Below are positions 4,951 through 61,465 of a stretch of DNA of 64,000 nucleotides, in pieces. The notes beneath the pieces were generated by a model. The model searched no databases. It saw only the letters and a program-made list of their open reading frames with translations, and was not told the origin of the DNA. The DNA lies in contig CP115555.1 in NCBI GenBank assembly GCA_030168575.1, positions 1,240,001 through 1,304,000 of the forward strand, written 5' to 3'. The DNA comes from Methanomassiliicoccales archaeon LGM-RCC1 (GTDB lineage: Archaea; Thermoplasmatota; Thermoplasmata; Methanomassiliicoccales; Methanomethylophilaceae). The translations under genes were made by a program, and so were the position numbers. Numbering within the stretch: the stretch's first letter is position 1; each line of letters starts with the position of its first letter.

Positions 4951-5643
4951 ATGATCGATTCCCACTTGCACGGCATCGAGCAGGCCCCGGAGGGATACGG
5001 CGATTTTTCTGAATTGTCGCGCATAGTGTCCTGCGTGGCCAAGCCCGACGAGTGGGACAGGCAGATGCAGATCGACGACCCCAGGATGATCAAGTGCTAC
5101 GGGGTTCACCCTTGGTTCGGGGAGGAATGGACGGTTGAGAGCAAGTCCAGGCTCTACAACATCCTGAAGGACGATCCCGACGCACATGTGGGAGAGATCG
5201 GACTGGATTCCAAGAGGGGAGGCAAGATCCTCTTCCAGACCATGGTCATGATCCAACAGCTGGACCTTGCAGAGTACTTCGGCAGGGTCGTGTCGATACA
5301 TGACGTGGGATGCGAGAAGATGGTCCTCGATTCGCTCAAGGGTAGGAAACTGAAGGCCATCCTGCATTCCTACGGCTCCGACAGCTATGTGAAGCCATAT
5401 TCGGAGATGGAATGCTATTTCTCTGTCTCCCCCAGACTTCTGTCCAGATCGGACATAAGGGTCCAGAGGCTAATGGAGGCGATCCCGGAGGACAGACTGC
5501 TCCTGGAGACGGACTCCCCGGTATGCGGGAAGGACTTCAAGGGCATGCGGGATTTCGCAGAGAGGCTCGGCAGCATTATCGGTAAACCGGCGGACGACCT
5601 AATCGCTACGGCGGAGGAGAATCTGAGGAGGCTGTTCCCATGA
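4951..5643 (+). CDS. TatD-like metal-dependent hydrolase
   Basis: The 230-residue product belongs to the TatD/amidohydrolase metal-dependent family. The first metal motif DSHLH is at residues 3-7, GEIGLD follows near residue 86, SIHD near 115, and the LLETDSP segment near 189 is the C-terminal family signature. Members are DNases or hydrolases of unsettled substrate. It starts 4 bases after the fen stop and overlaps tcdA by 4 bases, so it is in the fen operon; a nucleic-acid role fits but is not shown. Confidence 0.85.
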   Translation: MIDSHLHGIEQAPEGYGDFSELSRIVSCVAKPDEWDRQMQIDDPRMIKCYGVHPWFGEEWTVESKSRLYNILKDDPDAHVGEIGLDSKRGGKILFQTMVMIQQLDLAEYFGRVVSIHDVGCEKMVLDSLKGRKLKAILHSYGSDSYVKPYSEMECYFSVSPRLLSRSDIRVQRLMEAIPEDRLLLETDSPVCGKDFKGMRDFAERLGSIIGKPADDLIATAEENLRRLFP

Positions 5644-6422
5644 GCATGTCGCAGAGGACGGAACTGATCCTGGGAGAGGAAGGCATACAGAAGCTGAAGG
5701 ATGCATCTGTAATCCTAGTCGGATGCGGTGCGGTCGGAGGGTATGTCCTCGAAGGACTAGTACGCGCAGGAATAGGCAGGATAAGGGTCGTGGACCACGA
5801 TGTGTTCTCAGACAGCAATCTGAACCGTCAGATCCTAGCCACACAGGATACGATCGGCAGATCGAAGGTCGAGGCCGCCTGCGAGAGGGCCAGATCCATC
5901 AATCCGGACATCGAGATAGAAGGGATAGATGCACTGGTCACCGAGGAGACCGTTCCCGGCATACTGCAGGGCGACTACGACATCCTGATCGATGCGATAG
6001 ACACCGTCCGCAACAAGACCGCGCTTCTAAAGCATGCTTCCGAGAAAGGCATCACAACATTCTCGTCCATGGGTGCTGCACTTCACATCGATACGCAATC
6101 GGTCAGAGTATCACCGCTCATGAAGACCAGCGTCTGCCCGATCGCGGCATCGCTCAGGAAATCGCTCAGGGATTGCGATACATCGAGGATCACCGCCGTC
6201 TATTCGGTGGAGCCCCCGGTGGCGAAGCCGTCGGAGAGGGACGACCACGGGAAGAGCGTCCTGGGCTCGTTGCCTACTGTCCCCGCGGTTTTCGGCATGA
6301 CCTTGGCCAACGAGGCCATCAAGTTCATCTGTAGGGATAGGACGCAATCGCGATGGGTGCGAGGCCGCTTGTTCAGCTATACGTCAGCCTCTGAAGCGGA
6401 TTTTCTTACAATCCTATTTTAA
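5640..6422 (+). CDS. tcdA: TcdA-like E1 family enzyme (ThiF fold)
   Basis: A 260-residue E1-like (ThiF/HesA/MoeB) protein most like TcdA, which uses ATP to cyclise the tRNA modification t6A at position 37. The start region (RTELILGEEGIQKLKDA) and the nucleotide-binding VGCGAVGGYVLEGLVRAGIG, about residues 27-46, are typical of TcdA; the arginine-finger region DSNLNRQ follows. CxxC zinc ligands of other ThiF proteins are not evident. It ends in TAA, has no internal amber codon, and differs clearly from the second ThiF-like gene at 59884, which is a useful comparison for that gene's UAG site. Confidence 0.82.
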   Translation: MSMSQRTELILGEEGIQKLKDASVILVGCGAVGGYVLEGLVRAGIGRIRVVDHDVFSDSNLNRQILATQDTIGRSKVEAACERARSINPDIEIEGIDALVTEETVPGILQGDYDILIDAIDTVRNKTALLKHASEKGITTFSSMGAALHIDTQSVRVSPLMKTSVCPIAASLRKSLRDCDTSRITAVYSVEPPVAKPSERDDHGKSVLGSLPTVPAVFGMTLANEAIKFICRDRTQSRWVRGRLFSYTSASEADFLTILF

Positions 6423-14919: not shown

Positions 14920-16332
14920 TCAATTCACCTGGGAGGAGACAATGTCCTCGACTATGTCGAGGAACTCCTCCTTCTTTTCTTCCGGAATGGTCGCTCCCGC
15001 TGCGACGCTGTGACCTCCGCCGTACCCTCCTACGAGTCCGGAGGCGGTCTTCATAACTACAGAGAGGTCCAGGCCTCTGTCGACCAGATCCCTGTTCGCC
15101 CTGGCGGATACCTTCACCCCGTCATCCGAATCGACGAAGGCGATTATCGGCAGGTTGTGTCTGCATTCGGGAGAGTTCAGGAGCATACCGGCCACGATAC
15201 CGACCACAGTGTCCCTGATCTTGTCCCCAGCATCGAAGTACTGGATGAACCTGCGCTCCCTGATCAGATGGTTGTCTTTGACATAAGATAATGCTGATGA
15301 GATGTGCCTCCTGTGGTCGGCACGGTTCTTCTCCGCATCCTTCAGCGCGGTCGTGTCCCCGCAGCATATTCTCATCCCCGTCTCCGCATCGTCGTATCTT
15401 CCGCAGGAGTTCAGGACTGTTGCGAATTCCTTAGCGTCCCTGAGTCCGGTCCCGTGTTCGAACTTCGGCAGGGTGTAGACCTCCCCGTAGATTCTCTTCT
15501 GGTCCTCGAGGCACACAAGCTCCAGAACGTTGTCCGTAACCCTCTCCTTCTCCGAGGGGTCCAGATCGTTCCAAGACCTCCATTCGCCGTTCTTCTTGAG
15601 CGGGACGTGCAGGAACTCCAGCATGTCCATGCATCCGTTGGGGTTGTCCGTGAGCCCCTCCAAGCGGGGCTCGTTGCAGTATTGGAAGAACTGTATGATG
15701 GGGCGGGTCTCCCTTCCGAAGAGCCTCAGGTCTTGCTCTATCACCAGGTCATCGTTCGCGACGGCATCGTTGACTATCATGCGGTTTATGCTGACGAGCT
15801 TGGATTGATTGGTGTCCTGGAAGTCCCCCACAGCACCGACGATGGCGAGGTAGGCGAGATCGATATTGGCGGGATCCACCACCTTCGATAACAGATAGGT
15901 CATACCTGCACCGCAGGTCTCGAAGGAGCCGTCGAACCCGTACACGTGTGGATTGAGATGGTCCACTGATACGAAGTTGTCCAGAGATGTCTGCTTCTTC
16001 CTCCATTTGGGGTCGGGAACGTGATGATCAGTGATCACAAGATTGGACCTGGAGAATTCGGACAGGTATCCGCTTCCGAGGTCGCATATCCAAACGTAAT
16101 CCTCCGGGGCGTCATTGACCATAGCGATGGTCTCCTCGGTGATCTTAGGCACGAAAACAGTGCGGTGCTCCGCTCCGAGACGGTCAGCTGTGATCGTCGC
16201 GATGGAACCGGCCGTTATCCCGTCCGCATCTATGTGGGAGACGATGAGTATGCTCTTCGCCTTCCTGAGGCCAGCAGCCGCAGTGGCCAGGTCGCGCTCC
16301 ATACGTCCAAGGTCACCATTTGTATCCGGCAT
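14920..16332 (-). CDS. archaeal RecJ-like DHH phosphoesterase
   Basis: A 470-residue DHH-superfamily protein resembling archaeal RecJ/GAN proteins, which are single-strand exonucleases that in some archaea bind the GINS part of the replicative helicase. SHIDADG (about residues 32-38) and ITDHHVPD carry the metal-binding aspartates and histidines; the DHHA1-like C-terminal GGYGGGHSVAAGA is also present. It overlaps the 3' end of the upstream RNase H-fold gene by 20 bases, so the two are cotranscribed. Nuclease function is known for the family, not shown here. Confidence 0.85.
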   Translation of the reverse strand: MPDTNGDLGRMERDLATAAAGLRKAKSILIVSHIDADGITAGSIATITADRLGAEHRTVFVPKITEETIAMVNDAPEDYVWICDLGSGYLSEFSRSNLVITDHHVPDPKWRKKQTSLDNFVSVDHLNPHVYGFDGSFETCGAGMTYLLSKVVDPANIDLAYLAIVGAVGDFQDTNQSKLVSINRMIVNDAVANDDLVIEQDLRLFGRETRPIIQFFQYCNEPRLEGLTDNPNGCMDMLEFLHVPLKKNGEWRSWNDLDPSEKERVTDNVLELVCLEDQKRIYGEVYTLPKFEHGTGLRDAKEFATVLNSCGRYDDAETGMRICCGDTTALKDAEKNRADHRRHISSALSYVKDNHLIRERRFIQYFDAGDKIRDTVVGIVAGMLLNSPECRHNLPIIAFVDSDDGVKVSARANRDLVDRGLDLSVVMKTASGLVGGYGGGHSVAAGATIPEEKKEEFLDIVEDIVSSQVN

Positions 16333-17074
16333 GTTCCCTCACGAGTTTGCCGTAGATCACTCCGGCGATGTATTCGAGATTGATGGTATCTGCACGGTTG
16401 TATTCCTGCAGGATGTTCAGTGCATCCTCGTCACCGTGCCTCTTCCACATATGCCAAAGATGGACGGCCTCAGCGCCGTCCACTCCCTCGATCTCCTCGG
16501 CCCTTGTTATGCCGAGCTCGATCTCCAGGGGTTTCAGTCCTCCCTTGAATCCCACCTTCCTCGATGCGAAGCGTAGGTCGTACTGAGGGATATCGAAATC
16601 CACCTCGGGGAAGCTGTTCCTTAGAACGGGAACATCGAAGCAGCTCCCGTTGAACGTGACGAGCATCTTGGAGCCTTTCAGGGCATCCGACAGTGATTCG
16701 GAATCCAGGTCGAATCCCTCCGTCAGGGTGTACGTCTTATCCTTCCTATGGACCGTGACCACCGTGACGAGCGCATCCCTGCTCAGACCGTCGGTCTCGA
16801 TATCGAGGTATGCTGCATCGTCCTTGAAGCGGTCGTACATCCTCCAATGCTCAGATTTGGGCACAAGATCGGACAATGCGCAGGCATTCTCTTCCTTCAG
16901 AAGTTCCGCAGCCTGCATGATGATCGGATCCGATTTCTCCTTCAGGGCAGGCTTGACGCAGCCGATGTTGTCGGACGATAGGAAATCGTCCCAATCAAGT
17001 ATGCCCGATTCCCAGATGCTCCTCTCCTTCTTGGCACCCACTGAAGGCAGAATCTGGAAGGTGTGTTCGATCAT
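16313..17074 (-). CDS. RNase H-fold exonuclease, YprB-like
   Basis: The 253-residue protein has an RNase H-like (DEDD-type) exonuclease domain in its C-terminal two thirds: AYLDIETDG (first acidic pair, near residue 88), TFNGSCFDVPVL, the YDLRF region, and a late EYNRADTINLEYI. This is the pattern of the YprB/RNase_H_2 family. The N-terminal 80 residues are a separate, possibly helix-hairpin-helix-like segment (SGILDWDDFLSS). It overlaps the RecJ-like gene, suggesting a joint nucleic-acid repair or turnover role, and is divergent from the phosphoesterase at 17126. Confidence 0.78.
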   Translation of the reverse strand: MIEHTFQILPSVGAKKERSIWESGILDWDDFLSSDNIGCVKPALKEKSDPIIMQAAELLKEENACALSDLVPKSEHWRMYDRFKDDAAYLDIETDGLSRDALVTVVTVHRKDKTYTLTEGFDLDSESLSDALKGSKMLVTFNGSCFDVPVLRNSFPEVDFDIPQYDLRFASRKVGFKGGLKPLEIELGITRAEEIEGVDGAEAVHLWHMWKRHGDEDALNILQEYNRADTINLEYIAGVIYGKLVREHAGYKW

Positions 17075-17125
17075 CGCTCCCGCATATGCGTAAACGGTTT
17101 TAATCCCTATTCTCTAAGGGCGGTC

Positions 17126-17848
17126 ATGAGGGCCAAGGAGATACTGCCGGGAGTGAGGATCACCAGCGACAGGTGTCTGGTCCTCGATGAAGGCCCCACG
17201 GTTGTTCTCGGGGACCTTCACCTAGGTTACGAGAGGGCGCTCGAGCAGGAGGGGATGTACCTTCCACGCATCAACACCGAGTCCATCAGGGAGTGCCTCA
17301 ACGACATATTGTCCAGGTACGAACCGAAGAGGATCGTCCTCCTCGGGGACATTAAGCACGACTTCAAGCGTGCCGGTTACGAGGAGAAGCAGGAGGTCAG
17401 GAAGATATTCAACCTCCTTGCCGAGGCGGCGCAGGTCGTAGCCATCAAAGGAAACCACGACAATTATCTGCAGAACATCGTGGCCGATCTCGGATTCCTG
17501 GTGGTCGATTACATCGATATAATGGGCTTCCGCCTGGAGCACGGGCATGTGGATTCCGGTGTGAGGCCGGTTATAATAGGGCACGAGCACCCTTCCGTGA
17601 GGATCCCGGGGAGCGTTGGCGGTGGCCTGAAGATTCAATGCTTCGTCCATGCGGAGAAGGAGGGTGTGATCGTCCTTCCGCCTTTCAGCCCATTCGCCTC
17701 GGGAAACGATCTCGTCCTTGACAAGGATGCGGTCATGGCCCCCGCATTGAAGGATGCGGACTACCCCAACGCCCGTCTTTACGGCGTTACGGACATGGGC
17801 CTGATGGACTTGGGGACCCTGGCAGACATTTCTGACGTCACCTTGTGA
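17126..17848 (+). CDS. archaeal metallophosphoesterase
   Basis: A 240-residue calcineurin-like phosphoesterase. Metal motifs are in order: GDLHLGYE (about residues 29-36), LLGDIKHD, IKGNHDN, and GHEHPSV. It belongs to the archaeal group with C-terminal tails of unknown use, often annotated as DNA repair phosphoesterases by context. ATG 17126 was chosen because the longer frame upstream overlaps the divergent gene. Substrate is unknown; the neighbouring nuclease genes favour a nucleic-acid role. Confidence 0.8.
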   Translation: MRAKEILPGVRITSDRCLVLDEGPTVVLGDLHLGYERALEQEGMYLPRINTESIRECLNDILSRYEPKRIVLLGDIKHDFKRAGYEEKQEVRKIFNLLAEAAQVVAIKGNHDNYLQNIVADLGFLVVDYIDIMGFRLEHGHVDSGVRPVIIGHEHPSVRIPGSVGGGLKIQCFVHAEKEGVIVLPPFSPFASGNDLVLDKDAVMAPALKDADYPNARLYGVTDMGLMDLGTLADISDVTL

Positions 17849-46091: not shown

Positions 46092-47531
46092 TCAGTATCT
46101 GTAGTTCTTGGGGTCGTCGTAACCGCCGTACATGACACCGGTGTTGTAGGGAGTGATCTCGAATCCCCAGCTGGCCATGCGGGCGAGAGCTGCGTCGTAG
46201 ACCTCGAGGTACTCCTTGGTGGGCCTGACGGTCTTGACGTCGTAACACTCCTGGAAGGTCTTTCCAAGGTCGGCGCTGGTGTACTGAGGCTCGTACCACT
46301 GGACGAACTTCTTGAGCAGGTCGTTGACCTCAGGGATCTTCATTCCTGCGGTCTGTGCGGCTGCCTCTCCCATTACACGGGCTTCCATTCCGGTGATCTT
46401 GTCCTGTACGACTCCCTTTGCGACTGCGGATCCGGAGAGGAGCTCTCTTCCGGAAGCGGTGTCACAGATTGCCTGGGCTGCGGTCTCGATCAGTCCCATC
46501 TCGGTGCAGGGTCCTGCAACGGGGTAGTACTGGTTAGCGAGGAGCAGGTCGGTGTTGTTGTCGACTGCTGCGCAAGCGTGTCCTGCGACTGCGAGGGTCT
46601 CCTTAGCCATGGTGGTTCCCCACCTGATGTGGATAGGTCCGTCAAGGTGGAAGTTACCGGAGAAGAGTCCGAAGGATGCGAGTGTCGTAGCGACATCACA
46701 GATTGCGGTCTCCTCGAGCTGTCCGCAGTATCCACCGAAGATGGGCATCTGCTCGATCATGATGGTGTCTCCGGAGATTGTCCAGCCAGCGAGCATGTTC
46801 AGTCCGGTCATATCCATCTTCAGCTCGTTGAGCTGAGAGCACTCGTGGGCATCGGTGATCCTGTGTCCGGCGTTGGGGCAGTCTGCGACAAGCCTTGCTG
46901 CCTCGGACAGAGGAGTCTCGGGTCCCTAGACACCGAGTCCGGGCCTCTGGGCCCTGGTCCTTGCCTCTTTGGTCATCCTGAGCTCCTGCATTGTCGCGCG
47001 GACCTCGTAGGGGGTCTTGGACTTTGCGGGCTTGCCCTCGACGGTAGTCATAACTCCGTTAACGAGGTCGTCGACGATTCCCTCCTGGGCGTAGGACTGC
47101 ATGATCTGAATGAATACGTCCTCAGAGACGGGTGATCCGGTAGGTCCTCCCTGAATGACGGGCTTGATGGGTGCGTTTCCGTGTCTGGGGTAGAACCTTG
47201 CGATGTCCCTTCCCTCTCCAAGGATCAGCTTTTTGGGTGCCCTCTTGATTCCCTCCCAGATCTCCTCTTCCGTGAACTTCATTACACGGCCGAGGTCCTG
47301 GCAGTAGAATCCGCATGTGACGAGCATCTCGAGACCAGCCTGGAACAGGTTGTTCTTTGTCTCGTTGTCCTCGGGGACGAACTTGTCGCCGAAGTTGAGC
47401 TTGTACTTCTCCTTCATTGCTGTCGCTGTCTCAGGGATGATCTTGTAATCCCAGTCTGCCTCAGGGACCTTCTTTCCCTTGAGGAATCTCTCGTACACGT
47501 CAGTAACGGTCAAGAACCTTGTTGCTGCCAT
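46092..47531 (-). CDS. mtmB: monomethylamine methyltransferase MtmB (copy 1, pyrrolysine at 202)
   Basis: MtmB transfers the methyl group of monomethylamine to the MtmC corrinoid. The 479-residue protein is split only by an in-frame TAG at 46926-46928, codon 202, exactly the pyrrolysine position of Methanosarcina barkeri MtmB, within RPGLGV-Pyl-GPETPLS. Flanking VQGGPTGSPVSEDVF-like and QMPIFGGYCGQLEETAICDVAT segments match. It ends with about 20 extra residues (EITPYNTGVMYGGYDDPKNY) that copy 2 lacks. ATG 47531 was chosen over GTG 47540 by the spacing of an AGGTG site. It is 34 bases downstream of mtmC in one operon. Confidence 0.95.
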
Positions 47532-48838: not shown

Positions 48839-50221
48839 ATGACGGCACGTAGGTATGTTGATGTTTTCGAAGCCTACAACCGCTTCGTGTCCGGAGATAA
48901 GATTTCCGAGAAGGATTGGGATTACTACATCGTTCCCAACACCGCCGCTTTGATGAAGAAACGCTACAACATCAATTTCGGAGACAAGATCCTCCCAGAG
49001 GACCAGGACATGGTGGACCGCCTGTTCGTCGCCGGGATAGATATGCTCATCTCAACCGGAATCTACAATAGGGATACCGGAACCCGCATGAAGATCACCG
49101 AGGACGAGATCTACGAAGGTCTCAAGATGGCTCCGAAGAAGCTCAACATCGGCAGCGGGAAGGATCAGGTGGAATGCACGCCCCGCAGAGGGAACAGCAT
49201 GGCGAAGCCCATAATCGAAGGAGGCCCCACAGGAGCTCCCGTTTCTGAGAGCATCTACACCACTCTGATCGAATCATACGCTCAGGAACCCACTGTGGAC
49301 ACCATCGTGTCCGGTGTACTGGAGACTGTCAAGGGACACCCTTCCGTCAAGAACTCTCCTTGGGAGATCAGGGCCACGGTCGTGGAGCTATCATATGTGA
49401 AGGATGCGCTGATCAATGCGGGAAGACCGGATATGGGTGTATAGGGCCCGCAGACTCCTCTGACCGTCCAAGGACGCATCGTTGCAAATCTCCACGATCA
49501 GATTGGAATGAGGCATTCGGATCTCCATGAGGCTTCACAGCTCAACGAGATAAAGGTCGACATGAACCTTCTGAACATGGTCGCTGGTTGGCATCTTTCA
49601 GGAGACAATATCCTGATCGAGCAGATGCCGATCGTGGGCGGATATGCCGGAGGAATAGAGGAGACCGCAATCTGCGATGTCGCCACTACCATTGCTACTT
49701 CCGCCCTGCTCAACGGGGACATCCATCTCGGAGGGCCGATCCACATCAGATGGGGTACCACAACCAACAGGCAGTCCCTGCAGGTGGCGGCCCACACCGC
49801 CATGGCGTTGAATACAAACACAGATCTACTGCTGGCGAACCAGTACTATGCGATGGCCGGACCATGCACTGAGATGAATCTGCTGGAGACCGCGGCCCAG
49901 GCCATGTGCGACACGGCATCAGGAAGGGAGCTGTTGTCCGGTGTGGCCTCAGCCAAAGGTGTTCAGATGGACAAGGTCACCGGTATGGAATCCAGGATGA
50001 TGGGCGAGGCATCGATGGCCGCTTGCGGCATGTCCATCGAGGATGTCAACATCGTTCTGGACAGGATAGTATCAACCTACGAGAAGACCTATGCTGAGGC
50101 TCCAGCGGGGAAGAAATTCCAGGAATGCTACGACACCGACGACATCCAGCCTACCGAGGAGTACGTCTCGATCTATGACGGTGCCTTGAACGTCCTTTCC
50201 AACTGCGGTATCGACTTCTGA
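48839..50221 (+). CDS. mtmB: monomethylamine methyltransferase MtmB (copy 2, pyrrolysine at 202)
   Basis: A second MtmB of 460 residues, with TAG at 49442-49444, again codon 202, in the same context (RPDMGV-Pyl-GPQTPLT). It is clearly homologous to copy 1 but well diverged, is nearer the Methanosarcina length, and lacks the C-terminal extension. QMPIVGGYAGGIEETAICDVAT and GPCTEMNLLETAAQAMCDTASG are conserved. ATG 48839 follows a GGAG site; TTG 48830 is not needed. No mtmC lies beside it, so it would have to share the MtmC encoded at 47566. It is directly upstream of the pyl operon and may be transcribed separately. Confidence 0.94.
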
Positions 50222-50417: not shown

Positions 50418-50438
50418 AATAAACTCTCATCATCCGTT

Positions 50439-50509
50439 GGAGGGCGCTCCGGCGAGCAAACGGGTCTCTAAAACCTGTAAGCGGGGTTCGACCCCCCGGC
50501 CTTTCGCCA
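50439..50509 (+). tRNA. pylT: tRNA-Pyl (CTA), amber suppressor
   Basis: A 71-base tRNA, including encoded CCA, with anticodon CTA at 468-470 (offset 50000). The acceptor stem is GGAGGGC/GCCTTTC with G discriminator; the D stem GCTC/GAGC follows with no intervening base and has a tiny loop (CGGC). The anticodon stem is 6 bp (ACGGGT/ACCTGT), loop CTCTAAA, variable region only about two bases, T arm CGGGG/CCCCG. These oddities are those of tRNA-Pyl of Methanomassiliicoccales. It lies 17 bases before pylS. Confidence 0.95.
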
Positions 50510-50526
50510 TCATTACGGTAGATATC

Positions 50527-51348
50527 ATGGGTGTAAAGTTCACTGATTCTCAGATCCAGCATCTGATGGAATATGGAGACGTCGATTGGTCCGACGCGGA
50601 GTTCGATGACGCCGCAGCGAGGGACAAGGAGTTCTCCAGTCAGTTCTCCAAGATGAAGTCGGCAAACGACAAGGGTCTGAAGGACATCATCGCCAACCCC
50701 CGCAATGACCTTACCGATCTGGAGAACAGGATCAGGGAGAAGATCAAGGCCAGGGGTTTCATCGAGGTGCACACCCCCATTTTCGTTTCCAAGGCCGCAT
50801 TGGCAAAGATGACCATCACCGAGGACCACCCGCTGTACAAGCAGGTCTTCTGGATAGATGACAAGAGAGCTCTTAGGCCCATGCACGCCATGAACCTCTA
50901 CAAGGTCATGAGGGAGCTCAGGGACCACACAAAAGGCCCCGTGAAGATATTCGAGATCGGATCATGCTTCAGGAAGGAGTCCAAGAGCTCCACCCACCTC
51001 GAGGAGTTCACGATGCTGAACCTGGTGGAGATGGGACCGGACGGAGATGCAATGGAGCATCTGAAGATGTACATCGGCGACATCATGGACGCTGTCGGAC
51101 TCGAGTACACCACCTGCCGCGAGGAATCCGACGTCTACGTAGAGACACTAGACGTTGAGATCAACGGCACGGAGGTCGCATCCGGGGCCATCGGACCCCA
51201 CAAGCTCGACCCCGCGCATGACGTCCATGAGCCTTGGGCAGGAATCGGTTTCGGTCTGGAGAGGCTCCTCATGATGAAGACAGGAAGGAGCAACGCCAGG
51301 AAGACCGGCAAGAGCATCACGTACCTGAACGGTTACAAATTGGATTGA
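50527..51348 (+). CDS. pylS: pyrrolysyl-tRNA synthetase, N-terminal-domain-less type
   Basis: PylS, 273 residues, attaches pyrrolysine to tRNA-Pyl. It consists only of the class II catalytic core (motif 2 region FEIGSCFRKESKSSTHLEEF at about residues 140-160; motif 3 GIGFGLERLL near 245). The roughly 150-residue N-terminal tRNA-binding domain of Methanosarcina PylS is missing, and no separate copy is in the window, as in other Methanomassiliicoccales. ATG 50527 was chosen since the longer frame runs through pylT. It begins pylSBCD. Confidence 0.96.
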   Translation: MGVKFTDSQIQHLMEYGDVDWSDAEFDDAAARDKEFSSQFSKMKSANDKGLKDIIANPRNDLTDLENRIREKIKARGFIEVHTPIFVSKAALAKMTITEDHPLYKQVFWIDDKRALRPMHAMNLYKVMRELRDHTKGPVKIFEIGSCFRKESKSSTHLEEFTMLNLVEMGPDGDAMEHLKMYIGDIMDAVGLEYTTCREESDVYVETLDVEINGTEVASGAIGPHKLDPAHDVHEPWAGIGFGLERLLMMKTGRSNARKTGKSITYLNGYKLD

Positions 51349-51353
51349 TATTC

Positions 51354-52409
51354 ATGATAGCGGACATCGTCGCAAAGGGAGAGAAGGAAGGAAAGCTATC
51401 TGTAGGCGAGATCTTCCAGCTGATGTCCGTATCGGACAAGGACGAACTGGACTGCCTGTTCTCAGCTGCACGCAGGGTAAGGGACAAGCACTTCGGCAGG
51501 AAGATCTTCACATACGGTTTCGTCTACTTCTCCACCTACTGCAAGAACAACTGCACTTTCTGCTATTACAGGACCACCAACAACGGCATCGACAGATACC
51601 GCAAGACCAAGGAGGAGATCGTGGAGCTGTCGGCAAGCCTGAAGGATGCAGGTATCAACCTCTCTGATCTCACCATGGGCGAGGACCCCCAGATGTACAA
51701 GGACGGTTACAAGAACCTCCTTGAGATAATCTCCGCTGTGCACGACGAGGTCGGCATCAACATCATGGCCTCCCCCGGAGCCCTGCCTCAGGAGATGTTC
51801 GCGAAGGTGCGCGACGCCGGGGCTGACTGGTACGCATGCTACCAGGAGACCTACAACAGGCAGCTTTTCAAATCACTGAGGCTCAACCAGAGCTTCGACG
51901 ACCGCAGGAACCAGAAGATCTGGGCCATGGAGGCAGGACTGCTGGCCGAGGACGGTATGATGATCGGACTCGGAGAGAACGTCAGGGACCGTGCGGAGAC
52001 CATCGCAGAGATGAGCTCCCTGGGATGCGGTCAGGTCCGCGCCATGACGTTCGTCCCCCAGGTGGGAACGCCCATGCAGGATTTCACGCCCTACGATTCC
52101 ACCGAGGAGCTGAAGGCCATCGCCATCATGAGGCTCCTGAACCAGGACAATCTCATCCCCTGCAGCCTCGACGTTGAAGGCATCGCAGGTCTAAAGACAA
52201 GGATCAACGCCGGAGCCAACGTGGTCACGTCCATAGTTCCTCCGAGCAAGCATCTCGCTGGTGTGGCGCAGCACGAGCTGGACATCGAGAACGGAAACCG
52301 TTCCGTCGAGCACGTGTTCGAGCTTCTCGAGGACATGGGCCACCACCACGCATCATCTGCGGAATACCAATCATTCCTGAACGCACACCGCCCGAAGAGA
52401 GTGGCCTGA
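51354..52409 (+). CDS. pylB: methylornithine synthase PylB
   Basis: PylB, 351 residues, is a radical SAM mutase that rearranges lysine to 3-methylornithine, the first step of pyrrolysine synthesis. The cluster motif CKNNCTFC (Cys 63, 67 and 70) gives CxxxCxxC. TMGEDPQMYK and the C-terminal GANVVTSIVPPSKHLAGVAQ are family segments. ATG 51354 is 5 bases after pylS; the stop overlaps the pylC ATG by one base. Confidence 0.95.
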   Translation: MIADIVAKGEKEGKLSVGEIFQLMSVSDKDELDCLFSAARRVRDKHFGRKIFTYGFVYFSTYCKNNCTFCYYRTTNNGIDRYRKTKEEIVELSASLKDAGINLSDLTMGEDPQMYKDGYKNLLEIISAVHDEVGINIMASPGALPQEMFAKVRDAGADWYACYQETYNRQLFKSLRLNQSFDDRRNQKIWAMEAGLLAEDGMMIGLGENVRDRAETIAEMSSLGCGQVRAMTFVPQVGTPMQDFTPYDSTEELKAIAIMRLLNQDNLIPCSLDVEGIAGLKTRINAGANVVTSIVPPSKHLAGVAQHELDIENGNRSVEHVFELLEDMGHHHASSAEYQSFLNAHRPKRVA

Positions 52410-53569
52410 TGAGGATCGCAATAGTCGGCGGGGCCCTTCAGGGCATGGAAGCGGTTCTACTGGCCAAGGCCGCCGGTTACGAGACCGTCGTCCTGGATAG
52501 GAAGGCATCCGCCCCGGCAATGTCATTGTGCGACGAACCGATAGTCTTAGACCCCACCAAGGATGCGGAAGCTGCGTTGGAGGTCTTCAAAGGATGCGAT
52601 GCGGTGATTCCCGCATGCGAGGAGATGGATCTCCTGACAACGCTGGACTCGATCAAAGGACGCATGGATGCTCCTCTTCTGTTCGACCTAGCATCATACA
52701 ACATCTCGAGTTCGAAGAACAAATCGAACAACATCATGGCGTCGGTTGGAGTACCTCTTCCGGAACCCTGGCCGTACTGCGGCTATCCTGCTATTGTGAA
52801 ACCAGCATCCCAGAGCGGAAGCATCGGTGTCACGGTAGCCCATAACGAGCACGACCTCGAGAACGGTCTGCAGATCGTCAGGGGCCTGGGAGACGAACCG
52901 GTCATCCAGGAGTTCGTCCACGGCAAGAGCGTCTCAATCGAGGTGATCGGCAACGGTGAGACCGCAAAATCATACGTCACCACCGAGGTCTGCCTCGATT
53001 CCAACTATGACTGCAAGATGGTCCGCTGCAACCCCAACATAATGTCCGATGAGGACTGCAGGAAGTTCGCGGATATCGGAAAGGATGTTGCTGAAGCGAT
53101 AAAGCTCAATGCACTCATGGATGTGGAAGCCATCCTCACACCCAAAGGACTCCGTGTGCTGGAGATCGATGCCCGTATCCCCAGCCAGACCCCCGCGGCC
53201 ATCGAGGCGGCTACAGGAGTCAATCTCTTGGAGGAGCTGACCACCACCGCCCTTGGCAAGCCCAAGGACAGGAAGGCCGAGGAAGGATGCTCAATCTACC
53301 GTCACGTGTACCTCAAGGACGGTGTCCTGAGGTCGAGCGGAGAGAAGGAGTTCGGACATGTGGTGAAACCGAGGTTCGAGAAGGGACTGTTCGGTGCTGA
53401 CAACACCATTTCCGATTATGAAAACGGTAAGGAGGAGTGGCATGCCACCCTCATCGTCAAAGGAAGGACGGAGCAGGAGGTAGACCAGAAATGCGATGCC
53501 TGCATCCAGAGGATCCTTGACGAATGTTCTATTGAGAGGTTCCTCGACGGAACCCCGGAGATGATCTGA
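52409..53569 (+). CDS. pylC: pyrrolysine biosynthesis ligase PylC
   Basis: PylC, 386 residues, is an ATP-grasp ligase that joins lysine to 3-methylornithine. The N-terminal nucleotide-fold IAIVGGALQGMEAVLLAKAAGYE, split over residues 3-25, and the central ATP-grasp segments (PAIVKPASQSGSIGV, EFVHGKSVSIEVIG, EIDARIPSQTPAAIE) are present. It overlaps pylB and pylD by one base each. Confidence 0.94.
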   Translation: MRIAIVGGALQGMEAVLLAKAAGYETVVLDRKASAPAMSLCDEPIVLDPTKDAEAALEVFKGCDAVIPACEEMDLLTTLDSIKGRMDAPLLFDLASYNISSSKNKSNNIMASVGVPLPEPWPYCGYPAIVKPASQSGSIGVTVAHNEHDLENGLQIVRGLGDEPVIQEFVHGKSVSIEVIGNGETAKSYVTTEVCLDSNYDCKMVRCNPNIMSDEDCRKFADIGKDVAEAIKLNALMDVEAILTPKGLRVLEIDARIPSQTPAAIEAATGVNLLEELTTTALGKPKDRKAEEGCSIYRHVYLKDGVLRSSGEKEFGHVVKPRFEKGLFGADNTISDYENGKEEWHATLIVKGRTEQEVDQKCDACIQRILDECSIERFLDGTPEMI

Positions 53570-54378
53570 TGACAAGGCTAACACCCGATCTGATTGAAGG
53601 CGTACCCGATGACAAGCTGGACCTGGATTCCAGGCTGATGAAGATGTGCGGAAAGACCGTGAAGCAGCTGGCGCTGGAGGGTGCCGGAGTGGATCACGAT
53701 GTGGATTTCTCCAAGGTCAGGGTCGCAGTCGTTCCCATCACGTCAGGAATGGGTGTAATCAGCGGATTCTCGAAATCGGTCGACGCCATCGTCAAGCGCC
53801 TGGGCATGGACAGCTATGTCACCGCAGGCACGGATGTGAACGGATTCCAGCAGGGGATCCTGGACAAGGTCGACATGATCATGATGGCCGACGATGCCAT
53901 GTTCGTCGCATACAACGTCCATGAGGCCAGGAGCACCAACAATTCCTGGGGAACCGCCATGGGTTACGCCGTTGCTCTGAAGAATGCCGCTGACGGTGTC
54001 CAGGGCAAGGACGTCCTCGTCATCGGAGCGGGACTTGTCGGCACGGAAGCAGTCCAGATTCTCAAAGGATGGGGTGCTAACGTATCCGTCACGGATATCA
54101 AGTTCGAGAAGGCCAAAGCCCTTGAGCAGAGGTTCGGAGTAAAGGCATTGGAGGATGTGGAAGCGGCTCTGGCAGCTCACAAGTACATCCTCAATGCAGC
54201 CCCCGCAATCTTCCCCGGAAGGCTCATCCAGGAGGGAGCAGTCATCTCCACTCCGGGAGTGCCCCACTACTTCGATGAGGAGAGCAGGAAGAAGGCCAAA
54301 GCGATCATCCACGATCCCCTTGAGATAGGAACCGCCATGATGGCCGTAAACAGCGCCATGTTCTCGATTAAAAAGTGA
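53569..54378 (+). CDS. pylD: pyrrolysine biosynthesis dehydrogenase PylD
   Basis: PylD, 269 residues, oxidises lysine-N6-3-methylornithine, leading to ring closure and pyrrolysine. The NAD-binding VLVIGAGLVGTEAVQIL (about 147-163) lies in a Rossmann domain; the N-terminal helical LDSRLMKMCGKTVKQLA matches the family. The stop is TGA. An SMR transporter pair follows after 38 bases on the same strand. Confidence 0.94.
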   Translation: MTRLTPDLIEGVPDDKLDLDSRLMKMCGKTVKQLALEGAGVDHDVDFSKVRVAVVPITSGMGVISGFSKSVDAIVKRLGMDSYVTAGTDVNGFQQGILDKVDMIMMADDAMFVAYNVHEARSTNNSWGTAMGYAVALKNAADGVQGKDVLVIGAGLVGTEAVQILKGWGANVSVTDIKFEKAKALEQRFGVKALEDVEAALAAHKYILNAAPAIFPGRLIQEGAVISTPGVPHYFDEESRKKAKAIIHDPLEIGTAMMAVNSAMFSIKK

Positions 54379-58835: not shown

Positions 58836-59370
58836 TTATGACAACTACTCCCTTGTGGTAGGCCGTTTCCAGCCCCTGCACAAGGGTCACATGGACGTTA
58901 TCCGCAAGTGCGCGGAGGAATCCGAGCATCTGACCATCGGTATCGGAAGCGCGCAGTATTCGCACACACCCGAGAACCCTTTCACCGCCGGTGAGAGGTA
59001 CATGATGATCAACAAGACGCTTAGGGACGAGGGAATAGAGAACTACAGCATAGTCCCCATCGAGGATATCAACAGGTACCCTGTATGGGTCGCCCATGTT
59101 ACCTCATTGGTGCCCCCATTCAGAAGGGTGTACTCCAACAACCCTCTCACCAGGCGTCTCTTCGTGGAATCAGGTTATGAGGTACGCGAATCCCCTCTGT
59201 ACAACAGGGAGGTCTTCTCGGGTACCGAGATCAGGCGCAGGATCATCTGCGATGAGGAATGGCGCTCGCTCGTCCCCGAGCCCGTGGCGAAGATCATCGA
59301 CGACATCGACGGCGTGAACAGGATAAAGCAGATCAGCCGTGGCGGTAACGATGCCCCGCTCCGAGGTTGA
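58825..59370 (+). CDS. nadM: archaeal NMN adenylyltransferase
   Basis: A 181-residue nucleotidyltransferase that makes NAD from NMN and ATP. GRFQPLHKGHMDVI at residues 13-26 contains the (T/H)xGH motif, and FSGTEIRRRI near 130 is the C-terminal ISTxxxR-type motif. ATG 58825 was chosen because the upstream GTG would only add three residues. It overlaps the following pncC by 20 bases; both act on NMN. Confidence 0.92.
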   Translation: MKRNYDNYSLVVGRFQPLHKGHMDVIRKCAEESEHLTIGIGSAQYSHTPENPFTAGERYMMINKTLRDEGIENYSIVPIEDINRYPVWVAHVTSLVPPFRRVYSNNPLTRRLFVESGYEVRESPLYNREVFSGTEIRRRIICDEEWRSLVPEPVAKIIDDIDGVNRIKQISRGGNDAPLRG

Positions 59371-59884
59371 GTCACTATTGGATGTGCTCAGATCCAAGGG
59401 TCTGAGGATGTCCGCTGCGGAATCATGCACCGGAGGGATGATAGGTTCCCTCATAACGGATCTACCCGGAGCATCCGATGTTTTCCTGGGCAGCGCAGTC
59501 ACATATTCCAACGAGTCAAAGGAAGCCCTTCTGAAGGTATCCCATGAAACGCTGCTCCAGCATGGGGCGGTCAGCGAGGAGACGGCGAGGGAGATGGCCC
59601 TTGGATCGATAGAGGCTTACGGAAGCGATGTCGCCGTGGCAGTCACGGGGATAGCTGGTCCCGGAGGAGCCACCGAAACAAAACCCGTCGGTCTTGTCTA
59701 TATCGCGGTCGCAGACGGCCCCAGGACCATCGTGACCAGGAACCTTTTCAAAGGGGACAGACAATCCGTAAGGGAGCAGACTGCCATGGAAGCCATCAGA
59801 TTGCTCACCGAATTGGCGGAGGGAAGACTACGAGATTCGAGAGACAGTTACCGATATTCGGAGAAGAGGGACAGCAGAAGATAA
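59351..59884 (+). CDS. pncC: NMN deamidase PncC (CinA C-terminal domain)
   Basis: A 177-residue CinA-C domain protein that deamidates NMN to nicotinic acid mononucleotide. SAAESCTGGMIGSLITDLPG, residues about 20-39, and VAVTGIAGPGGATETKPVGLVYIA are signature regions. The last 20 residues (SRDSYRYSEKRDSRR) are a basic tail. It overlaps nadM and shares one base with the ThiF-like gene (TAATG). Confidence 0.9.
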   Translation: MPRSEVESLLDVLRSKGLRMSAAESCTGGMIGSLITDLPGASDVFLGSAVTYSNESKEALLKVSHETLLQHGAVSEETAREMALGSIEAYGSDVAVAVTGIAGPGGATETKPVGLVYIAVADGPRTIVTRNLFKGDRQSVREQTAMEAIRLLTELAEGRLRDSRDSYRYSEKRDSRR

Positions 59885-60507
59885 TGTCCGCTGTCGTAGG
59901 TATCGTCGGATGCGGAGGGCTGGGAGTCAATGTCATAACGCAGCTCACCGCCGCAGGCGTCACACACTTCGTCCTGTGCGACCACCAGACGCCGGATGTC
60001 ACCAATCTCAACCGTCAGTTCATCTACAGCGCCGGAGACTTCAGGCCCAAATCCGTGATCTCAGCCGAGTGGATCCTCGCATTGAACCCGGGAGCGGAGA
60101 TACAGGCCAATTCGGAGCCTTTGACGGAGATCAACGGCAACCTCTTCGAGGGATGCGACATACTGGTCGATTGTCTTGATTCCTTCGAATCAAGGATGGT
60201 CCTATCCGATCTGGCATAGAAGATGAATGTACCTCTCGTTCACGGAGGTGTAAGCGGATTGACAGGGCAGATCGCCGTATGCATCCCCGGGAAGACCAAG
60301 AGCCTTCGCGATATGATAGGCACCATGAAGGATCAGGAGGGAACCGTTCCATCTGTTGGAGCGGCTGTTTCCGCAATAGCTTCTATGGAGGCGTTGGAAG
60401 TCCTGAAGATCATCTCGGGACTGGGAACCGATAACGAGGGCAAGCTGATAACCATCGACATGACAGACTGGTCCACAGATGTCGTCGATTTCAATGAGAA
60501 TTCCTGA
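59884..60507 (+). CDS. ThiF-like E1 enzyme with in-frame amber (likely pyrrolysine) codon
   Basis: Read through TAG 60217-60219 (codon 112) this is a 207-residue E1/ThiF-fold protein. The first part has IVGCGGLGVNVITQLTAAGV (4-23) and DVTNLNRQF (40-48); the part after TAG has PLVHGGVSGLTGQIAV, as in MoeB and ThiF. The two parts are one domain: the TAG falls in the helix before beta-strand PLV, where MoeB has DACVKLGKPLV, one position after its Cys. The lead part alone lacks half the fold. A short ACCTC/GAGGT hairpin lies 12 bases after TAG. The stop is TGA. Role is unknown; TcdA at 5640 is a separate paralogue. Confidence 0.75.
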
Positions 60508-60562
60508 TCATCGCGCACGCTGAAGCGCACGATTATCTATTAGCTTCTAGATACATCAGGAC

Positions 60563-61465
60563 ATGCAGCACATTATGACCGGAAAGGTCAAAGAAGTGTA
60601 CAAAGTGGACGATGACACGTTGGAGTTCGCATACACCAACAACATCTCCGTTTTCGACAAGATCATCCCCTCGCAGGTCCCCCACAAGGGTGAGACACTC
60701 TGCAGGACCGCGAAGTACTGGTTCACACTCCTGACGAAGGAAGGCATCAACAACCATTACATCAGCGAGCCCTCCCCCGACAGGATGAGGGTCAAGAGGG
60801 TCGACATCATCAGGGATTACAGCAAGATCAACGGTTCCACGACCAACTACCTGATCCCCCTCGAGGTCATCTGCAGGTACTATGCAGCAGGATCCCTCAT
60901 GGACAGGATCAAGGATGGAAAGGTCAAGGAGACCGATCTCGGATTCCCCGCAGGACACGTAGTGAAGGAGGGAGAGAAGCTCCCCAAACCCTTCATCGAG
61001 TGCACAACGAAGCTGGAGGCCCACGACGAGAACCTCACGGATGAGGAGGCCAAGAAGATGGCCGGACTCTCTGATGAGGAGTTCGAGGAGATCAAGAGGA
61101 CCGTCCTCAAGATCGATGCTATCATCGACAGGGAGTGCTCCAAGAGGGGACTCATCCACTGCGACGGAAAGAAGGAGTTCGCCTTCGACAAGAACAGGAA
61201 GCTGATGGTCATAGACACATTCGGAACATTGGACGAGGACCGCTGGTGGGACGCAGACGAGTACGCCAAGGGTAACATCGTGCAGCTCTCCAAGGAGTTC
61301 GTCCGCCAGTACTACCGCGAGACCGGTTACCACAAGGCTCTCTATGACGCACGTGCGAAAGGCGAGCCCGAACCGGACATCCCCGCTCTTCCTCAGGAGA
61401 TCGTCGACCGCGTGAGCAAGCTCTACGTCGACATGTTCGAGAGGATCACCGGCGAGAAGTTCTGA
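60563..61465 (+). CDS. purC: SAICAR synthetase
   Basis: PurC, 300 residues, joins aspartate to CAIR in purine synthesis. GKVKEVYKVDDD (N-terminal ATP-binding), SQVPHKGETLCRTAKYWF, RYYAAGSL and the VIDTFGTLDEDR metal-binding region are present. The length is of the longer archaeal form. It follows the ThiF-like gene by 55 bases and ends close to the convergent UPF0179 gene. Confidence 0.94.
   Translation: MQHIMTGKVKEVYKVDDDTLEFAYTNNISVFDKIIPSQVPHKGETLCRTAKYWFTLLTKEGINNHYISEPSPDRMRVKRVDIIRDYSKINGSTTNYLIPLEVICRYYAAGSLMDRIKDGKVKETDLGFPAGHVVKEGEKLPKPFIECTTKLEAHDENLTDEEAKKMAGLSDEEFEEIKRTVLKIDAIIDRECSKRGLIHCDGKKEFAFDKNRKLMVIDTFGTLDEDRWWDADEYAKGNIVQLSKEFVRQYYRETGYHKALYDARAKGEPEPDIPALPQEIVDRVSKLYVDMFERITGEKF

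Follow-up and report, generated by a model that had tools for sequence, protein, structure and literature searches.

An in-frame TAG in a ThiF-like gene of Methanomassiliicoccales archaeon LGM-RCC1 is probably a recent, neutral pyrrolysine codon

A gene for a ThiF-fold, E1-like protein (thiF below) in the gut methanogen Methanomassiliicoccales archaeon LGM-RCC1 is interrupted by a single in-frame TAG, which is probably a recent and neutral exchange of Glu for pyrrolysine at the level of the strain, read through to the TGA. In the proposed sequence of events, a GAG codon would have become TAG in the lineage of this strain. Ribosomes would then insert pyrrolysine at residue 112, with an efficiency presumed sufficient, and continue to the TGA. 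The exchange would be nearly neutral and would be tolerated at a presumably exposed position near the end of a helix, one that varies in relatives. The analysis centres on a stretch of 64,000 nucleotides (positions 1,240,001 to 1,304,000 of contig CP115555.1, assembly GCA_030168575.1), referred to here as the window. The genome it comes from (G000) was compared with another labelled as the same species (G060) and with further relatives.

The frame and coordinates given in a preliminary description of this gene are exact. It runs from ATG 59884 to TGA 60505-60507, and the TAG at codon 112 is the sole interruption. The features at issue are these:
59884..60507, forward strand: ThiF-fold (E1-like) gene with its TAG read through, 207 amino acids, from the frame and the PF00899 match
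60217..60219, forward strand: in-frame TAG, codon 112 from ATG 59884 and codon 130 from ACG 59830
60223..60225, forward strand: ATG right behind TAG AAG, a possible re-initiation site, by eye

An open frame beyond a stop is weak evidence alone, and at least 90 open codons follow 26 of 195 TGA-ended genes in a 244 kb sample. The weight therefore rests on homology that spans the TAG. Read through, the gene gives a protein whose PF00899 (ThiF) match covers residues 4-198 and scores 147.7 bits, above the gathering cut-off of 28.1, and homologous sequence lies on either side of the TAG in an undamaged frame. Neither half had been thought to be a whole domain, and this holds: taken alone they score 94.4 and 38.4 bits against successive segments of the profile. 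It had also been said that the downstream half has no ribosome-binding site of its own, and inspection by eye indeed reveals no Shine-Dalgarno-like sequence before 60223. An Rfam scan of 59500-60700 returned no RNA element around the TAG at gathering scores.

How old is this TAG? The preliminary description had proposed an alignment of orthologues at this codon, and of the 20 that were read codon by codon all have a sense codon there and none has TAG (GAG in 12, TAC or TAT in three, GCC in two, and GTG, AGG and CAG in one each). GAG is present in the six closest sister species and also in G060, where the frame is open. The two strains are 98.87% identical over 8117 bases around thiF and 97.0% identical over 218 kb aligned, and their thiF genes differ by no gap, frameshift or further stop, including after the TAG. 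Since the orthologues, G060 among them, have a sense codon at this position, the TAG at 60217 is most simply read as a recent one-base change from GAG in the lineage of this strain. Four more genomes (G023, G008, G020, and G010) stood outside the codon-by-codon reading; no stop is listed inside their close matches. All 60 genomes of a set of relatives and all 31 of a genus set (own genome counted in both) have a ThiF-family match, although many of these matches are paralogues and the genus members G011 and G016 gave weak ones only.

Relatives have E, Y, A, V, R, or Q at residue 112, near the end of a helix, and pyrrolysine in place of Glu would therefore be tolerated. The preliminary description left two options for pyrrolysine here, a neutral insertion or a useful surface site. 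GAG in G060 and the six sisters, together with the variability of the position, speaks for the neutral option, whereas the useful one has no support, TAG being absent from all 20 orthologues. A functional site like that of MtmB would have a conserved TAG, which none of these 20 displays. Nothing suggests a functional use of pyrrolysine in thiF. A conserved split gene was also considered. One stop is listed within the match in each of G024, G012, G007, G013, and G019; these stops lie at the C-terminal ends, and the idea was rejected.

The capacity to make and insert pyrrolysine is encoded close by. The window had been said to encode both tRNA-Pyl and PylS; both are there, as are PylB, PylC, and PylD, so that the pylTSBCD cassette inside the window is complete. 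The four proteins were judged by NCBIfam cut-offs:
50439..50509, forward strand: tRNA-Pyl, anticodon CTA
50527..51348, forward strand: pylS, TIGR02367 with 258.8 bits (cut-off 178.15), start chosen by eye in ORF 50437-51348
51354..52409, forward strand: pylB, TIGR03910 with 442.2 bits (cut-off 348.2), start chosen by eye in ORF 51234-52409
52409..53569, forward strand: pylC, TIGR03909 with 333.6 bits (cut-off 248.3)
53569..54378, forward strand: pylD, TIGR03911 with 186.8 bits (cut-off 150.05)

PylS is above its cut-off in 27 of the 31 genomes of the genus set.

The next clue is the behaviour of TAG in the rest of the genome. Gene calling relied on a simple in-house finder based on codon usage, which produces some false calls as well. 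It covered the window with its surroundings, 244 kb in all (15% of the genome), plus a further 200 kb, for a total of 444 of 1,664 kb (27%). The 227 genes called in the 244 kb end in TGA (195), TAA (24), or TAG (8). A coding-like extension (score above 3) follows all eight TAG-ended genes versus 23 of the 219 that end in TGA or TAA (Fisher p 5e-8). Two of the eight are methylamine methyltransferase genes, which serve as internal positive controls:
46092..47531, reverse strand: mtmB, TAG at codon 202
48839..50221, forward strand: mtmB, TAG at codon 202

They score 736.8 and 694.4 bits, and their matches span TAG 202. The AcnA aconitase (L074:6208-8862, reverse strand) has TAG at codon 118 of 884, where G060 has AAG, and its match of 1328 bits covers residues 12-883. 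In a UvrD-type helicase (L080:1252-4155, forward strand) TAG stands at codon 417 of 967 in both strains, and the UvrD_C match (387-542) spans it. The RFC large subunit (L080:10846-12291, reverse strand) has TAG at codon 466 of 481, GAA in G060, and a CobW-type GTPase has it at codon 185 of 197, GAG in G060. An OmdA-type protein has it at codon 52 of 200 in both strains, with the domain match downstream of the TAG. The eighth gene is thiF itself.

When TAG is counted as sense, 17 in-frame TAGs fall within 220 called genes. Those at codons 4 to 39 may reflect starts called too far upstream and were given no weight, with the exception of a Hel308-like helicase (L075:2078-4357, reverse strand), in which codon 37 lies within the DEAD domain match and is CAG in G060. 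In the further 200 kb two of 194 genes end in TAG (62 and 61 amino acids), and neither has a coding extension. These may be true TAG stops or false ORFs, and TAG may sometimes stop translation. Both samples pooled, read-through candidates make up eight of ten TAG ends. TAG-ended calls elsewhere (7 of 236 in G060, 8 of 84 in G007, and 4 of 93 in G014) have mixed extension scores (-41 to 177, -0.1 to 80, and -2.3 to 217, respectively) and include some apparently false calls; they are not counted as support. Because most TAGs in the portion of the genome that was sampled behave as sense codons, UAG is very probably decoded in this organism. That, together with the complete cassette, is why pyrrolysine would be the residue inserted at position 112.

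Some further TAGs came to light along the way. TAG 466 of the RFC large subunit just precedes a C-terminal QASLFDF, a motif that we take to resemble a PCNA-binding box. In both strains an RNase_H_2 protein (window 16313-17548, reverse strand) has two in-frame TAGs, one at codon 109 and one at codon 145. A second ThiF-family gene, TcdA-like, lies in the window at 5640-6422; in its G060 counterpart codon 171 is TAG and codon 236 is TAA. A ThiF-family paralogue in G018, another species of the genus (L115:1369-1986), has a mid-gene TAG at a different site. Is there a pyrrolysine site particular to E1 proteins? This was considered and rejected: TAG lies elsewhere in other ThiF-family genes and is absent from the 20 orthologues of this one. 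Nor is the E1 class special in this respect, TAG being found inside unrelated genes of the same genome.

Comparison of the two strains bears on the same question. In an alignment of 64,314 codons from 208 genes, this genome has TAG seven times, TGA twice (both within the last two codons) and TAA never where G060 has a sense codon. In the reverse direction (212 genes, 65,412 codons), sense codons of this genome correspond in G060 to TAG twice and to TAA and TGA once each. With the last four codons of genes left out, TAG accounts for nine of ten sense-to-stop-type differences (p 0.029 by codon opportunity); with all strain differences counted it accounts for nine of 13 and the excess is not significant (p 0.26). 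Three of the cases in this genome are at codon 37 or earlier, and one of those in G060 is in a gene that also holds a TAA. On its own, therefore, this test is of modest weight.

What kind of protein is this? The AF2 model built from 21 sequences has a pLDDT of 88.5. In its numbering residue 112 becomes 130, which falls close to the end of helix 119-131. The closest structures are E. coli ThiF (1zud) and MoeB (1jw9), each with a TM of 0.89 by query length and with identities of 31 and 27%, respectively, in the structural alignment. The likeness to both extends to the fold and the nucleotide-binding motifs. In the preliminary description the UAG was placed by eye next to a Cys of ThiF, and the 1zud alignment agrees, since residue 112 pairs with the residue following a Cys of the E. 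coli protein. We take this helix Cys to be other than the catalytic one, and the site is variable; a catalytic role near the Cys was accordingly dropped as an explanation. Unlike E. coli ThiF, the protein has no Cys at the two stretches aligned with the CxxC and the active-site Cys of that enzyme, which presumably bind zinc and carry out catalysis, respectively. It reaches the cut-off of none of the 19 NCBIfam families listed (the top score is for NF006204, 168.5 of 339 bits), and this includes the equivalog for ThiF proper (TIGR02356, 111.5 versus 275.25 bits). A search for a ThiS/MoaD-type carrier (PF02597) at E <= 0.001 found none in this genome (0 of 1; control 11 of 14). Judging by its fold, the protein is predicted to adenylate the C-terminus of a carrier or peptide.

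One aspect that complicates the story is the start of the gene, which overlaps the end of pncC:
59339..59884, forward strand: pncC (CinA family), ending at TAA 59882-59884 and overlapping ATG 59884 (TAATG)
59818..59823, forward strand: GGAGGG, by eye similar to a Shine-Dalgarno sequence, 6 nt ahead of the ACG
59830..59883, forward strand: the 18 codons at the N-terminus of the orthologous gene, the first being ACG, from an alignment of 21 sequences

In the six closest sister species the ATG sits 18 codons upstream of 59884, where this genome has ACG (59830-59832), and distant orthologues start nearby at ATG, GTG, TTG, or possibly CTG. In nine of nine relatives checked this ATG is part of an ATGA overlap with a TGA in the pncC frame; both strains of the present species have ACGA. 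A single T to C change would abolish the thiF ATG and, at the same time, the pncC stop. The TGA of the relatives is CGA here, which makes pncC 18 codons longer. Within the 18 codons of thiF, R2, R5, Q6, G11, G14, and Q15 are invariant across the 21 aligned sequences. From the upstream TGA up to 59884, the frame contains no ATG, GTG, or TTG. Going by these features, translation would begin either at ACG, perhaps aided by GGAGGG, or at ATG 59884 through coupling to pncC, in which case the product would lack its N-terminus. With its start codon altered, the gene is uncertain to be expressed as the whole ThiF-like protein.

What if the gene is simply beginning to decay? In this hypothetical scenario, the main rival to a tolerated pyrrolysine, the species lost the ATG, selection relaxed and a nonsense-type change followed, and the product would matter little either way. 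The ACG shared by both strains and the missing substitute start codons speak for it. There is also an excess of amino acid changes: TAG aside, the strains differ in thiF by five nonsynonymous and three synonymous changes, versus 1307 and 4363 over 206 genes (p 0.019, uncorrected), and this nonsynonymous share ranks fifth from the top among the 173 genes that have five or more changes. However, the total is only eight, and two of the five nonsynonymous differences, V106A and E152D, are most likely changes on the side of G060, which has no TAG, the others being poorly polarised. The intact frame relative to G060 also speaks against decay, as does dN/dS to sister species, which where measurable is 0.05-0.12 before the TAG, 0.05-0.18 after it and about 0.06-0.13 for the whole gene. 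In that comparison, however, dS is nearly saturated, and the TAG and start changes are younger than most of the divergence time. Decay after loss of the ATG is therefore possible but rather unlikely.

Two other readings carry far less weight. An error of sequencing or assembly at 60217 would account for a TAG that is carried by a single assembly while the other genome of the species has GAG. Random errors, however, should also yield internal TAA and TGA codons, and the seven sense-to-TAG differences of this genome come with no TAA and with two TGA confined to gene ends, making an error here very improbable. The ATG one codon past the TAG raises another prospect, that UAG stops ribosomes, which re-start at 60223 so that the two halves form a split E1. 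Yet this ATG is the one that lacks a Shine-Dalgarno-like sequence, none of the 20 orthologues is split, G060 has a single frame, and a Met occurs within five codons of the TAG in only two of the eight extensions. Such a split is hardly to be expected. Pyrrolysine at a recently arisen, tolerated TAG remains the preferred reading.

There are parallels elsewhere. The tRNA-His guanylyltransferase reportedly gained pyrrolysine by neutral evolution (Heinemann and colleagues, 2009), likewise outside the methyltransferases though in another protein and organism. An archaeal code in which all TAG means pyrrolysine is said to have been described by Kivenson and colleagues in 2025, and there too TAG would be a general sense codon.

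A closer parallel is Candidatus Methanomethylophilus alvus, for which 16 pyrrolysine proteins beyond the methylamine methyltransferases are predicted and in which TAG makes up 1.6% of stops (Borrel et al., 2014; PMC4153887). The argument made there is that with such low use of TAG as a stop an in-frame amber codon is a stable mutation. Several features recur here, namely TAG in genes outside methylamine use, homologues without TAG and very low TAG stop use. There are also differences. Table 7 of that paper names no ThiF-family protein among its 20 entries, although several are merely "hypothetical," and the present case has a genome of the same species that directly displays the sense codon. 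The thiF TAG fits the picture drawn there of predicted neutral pyrrolysine sites in Methanomassiliicoccales and is of an already known kind.

The thiF gene itself is minor. The value of the finding lies in TAG versus GAG within one species in which TAG seldom ends genes. It seems likely, if somewhat less so than the reading of thiF, that in this species TAG has the status of a full sense codon and almost no remaining use as a stop, and that pyrrolysine sites turn over between strains, both in thiF and in core genes, for example aconitase and the RFC large subunit. A practical consequence is that gene calling with TAG as a stop truncates proteins of this sort, aconitase and the RFC large subunit among them. 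The strain difference is a clean natural test of whether a newly arisen UAG receives pyrrolysine. If the proposed turnover is real, strain pairs like this one would capture, while it is under way, the neutral gain and loss of sites for an additional genetically encoded amino acid.
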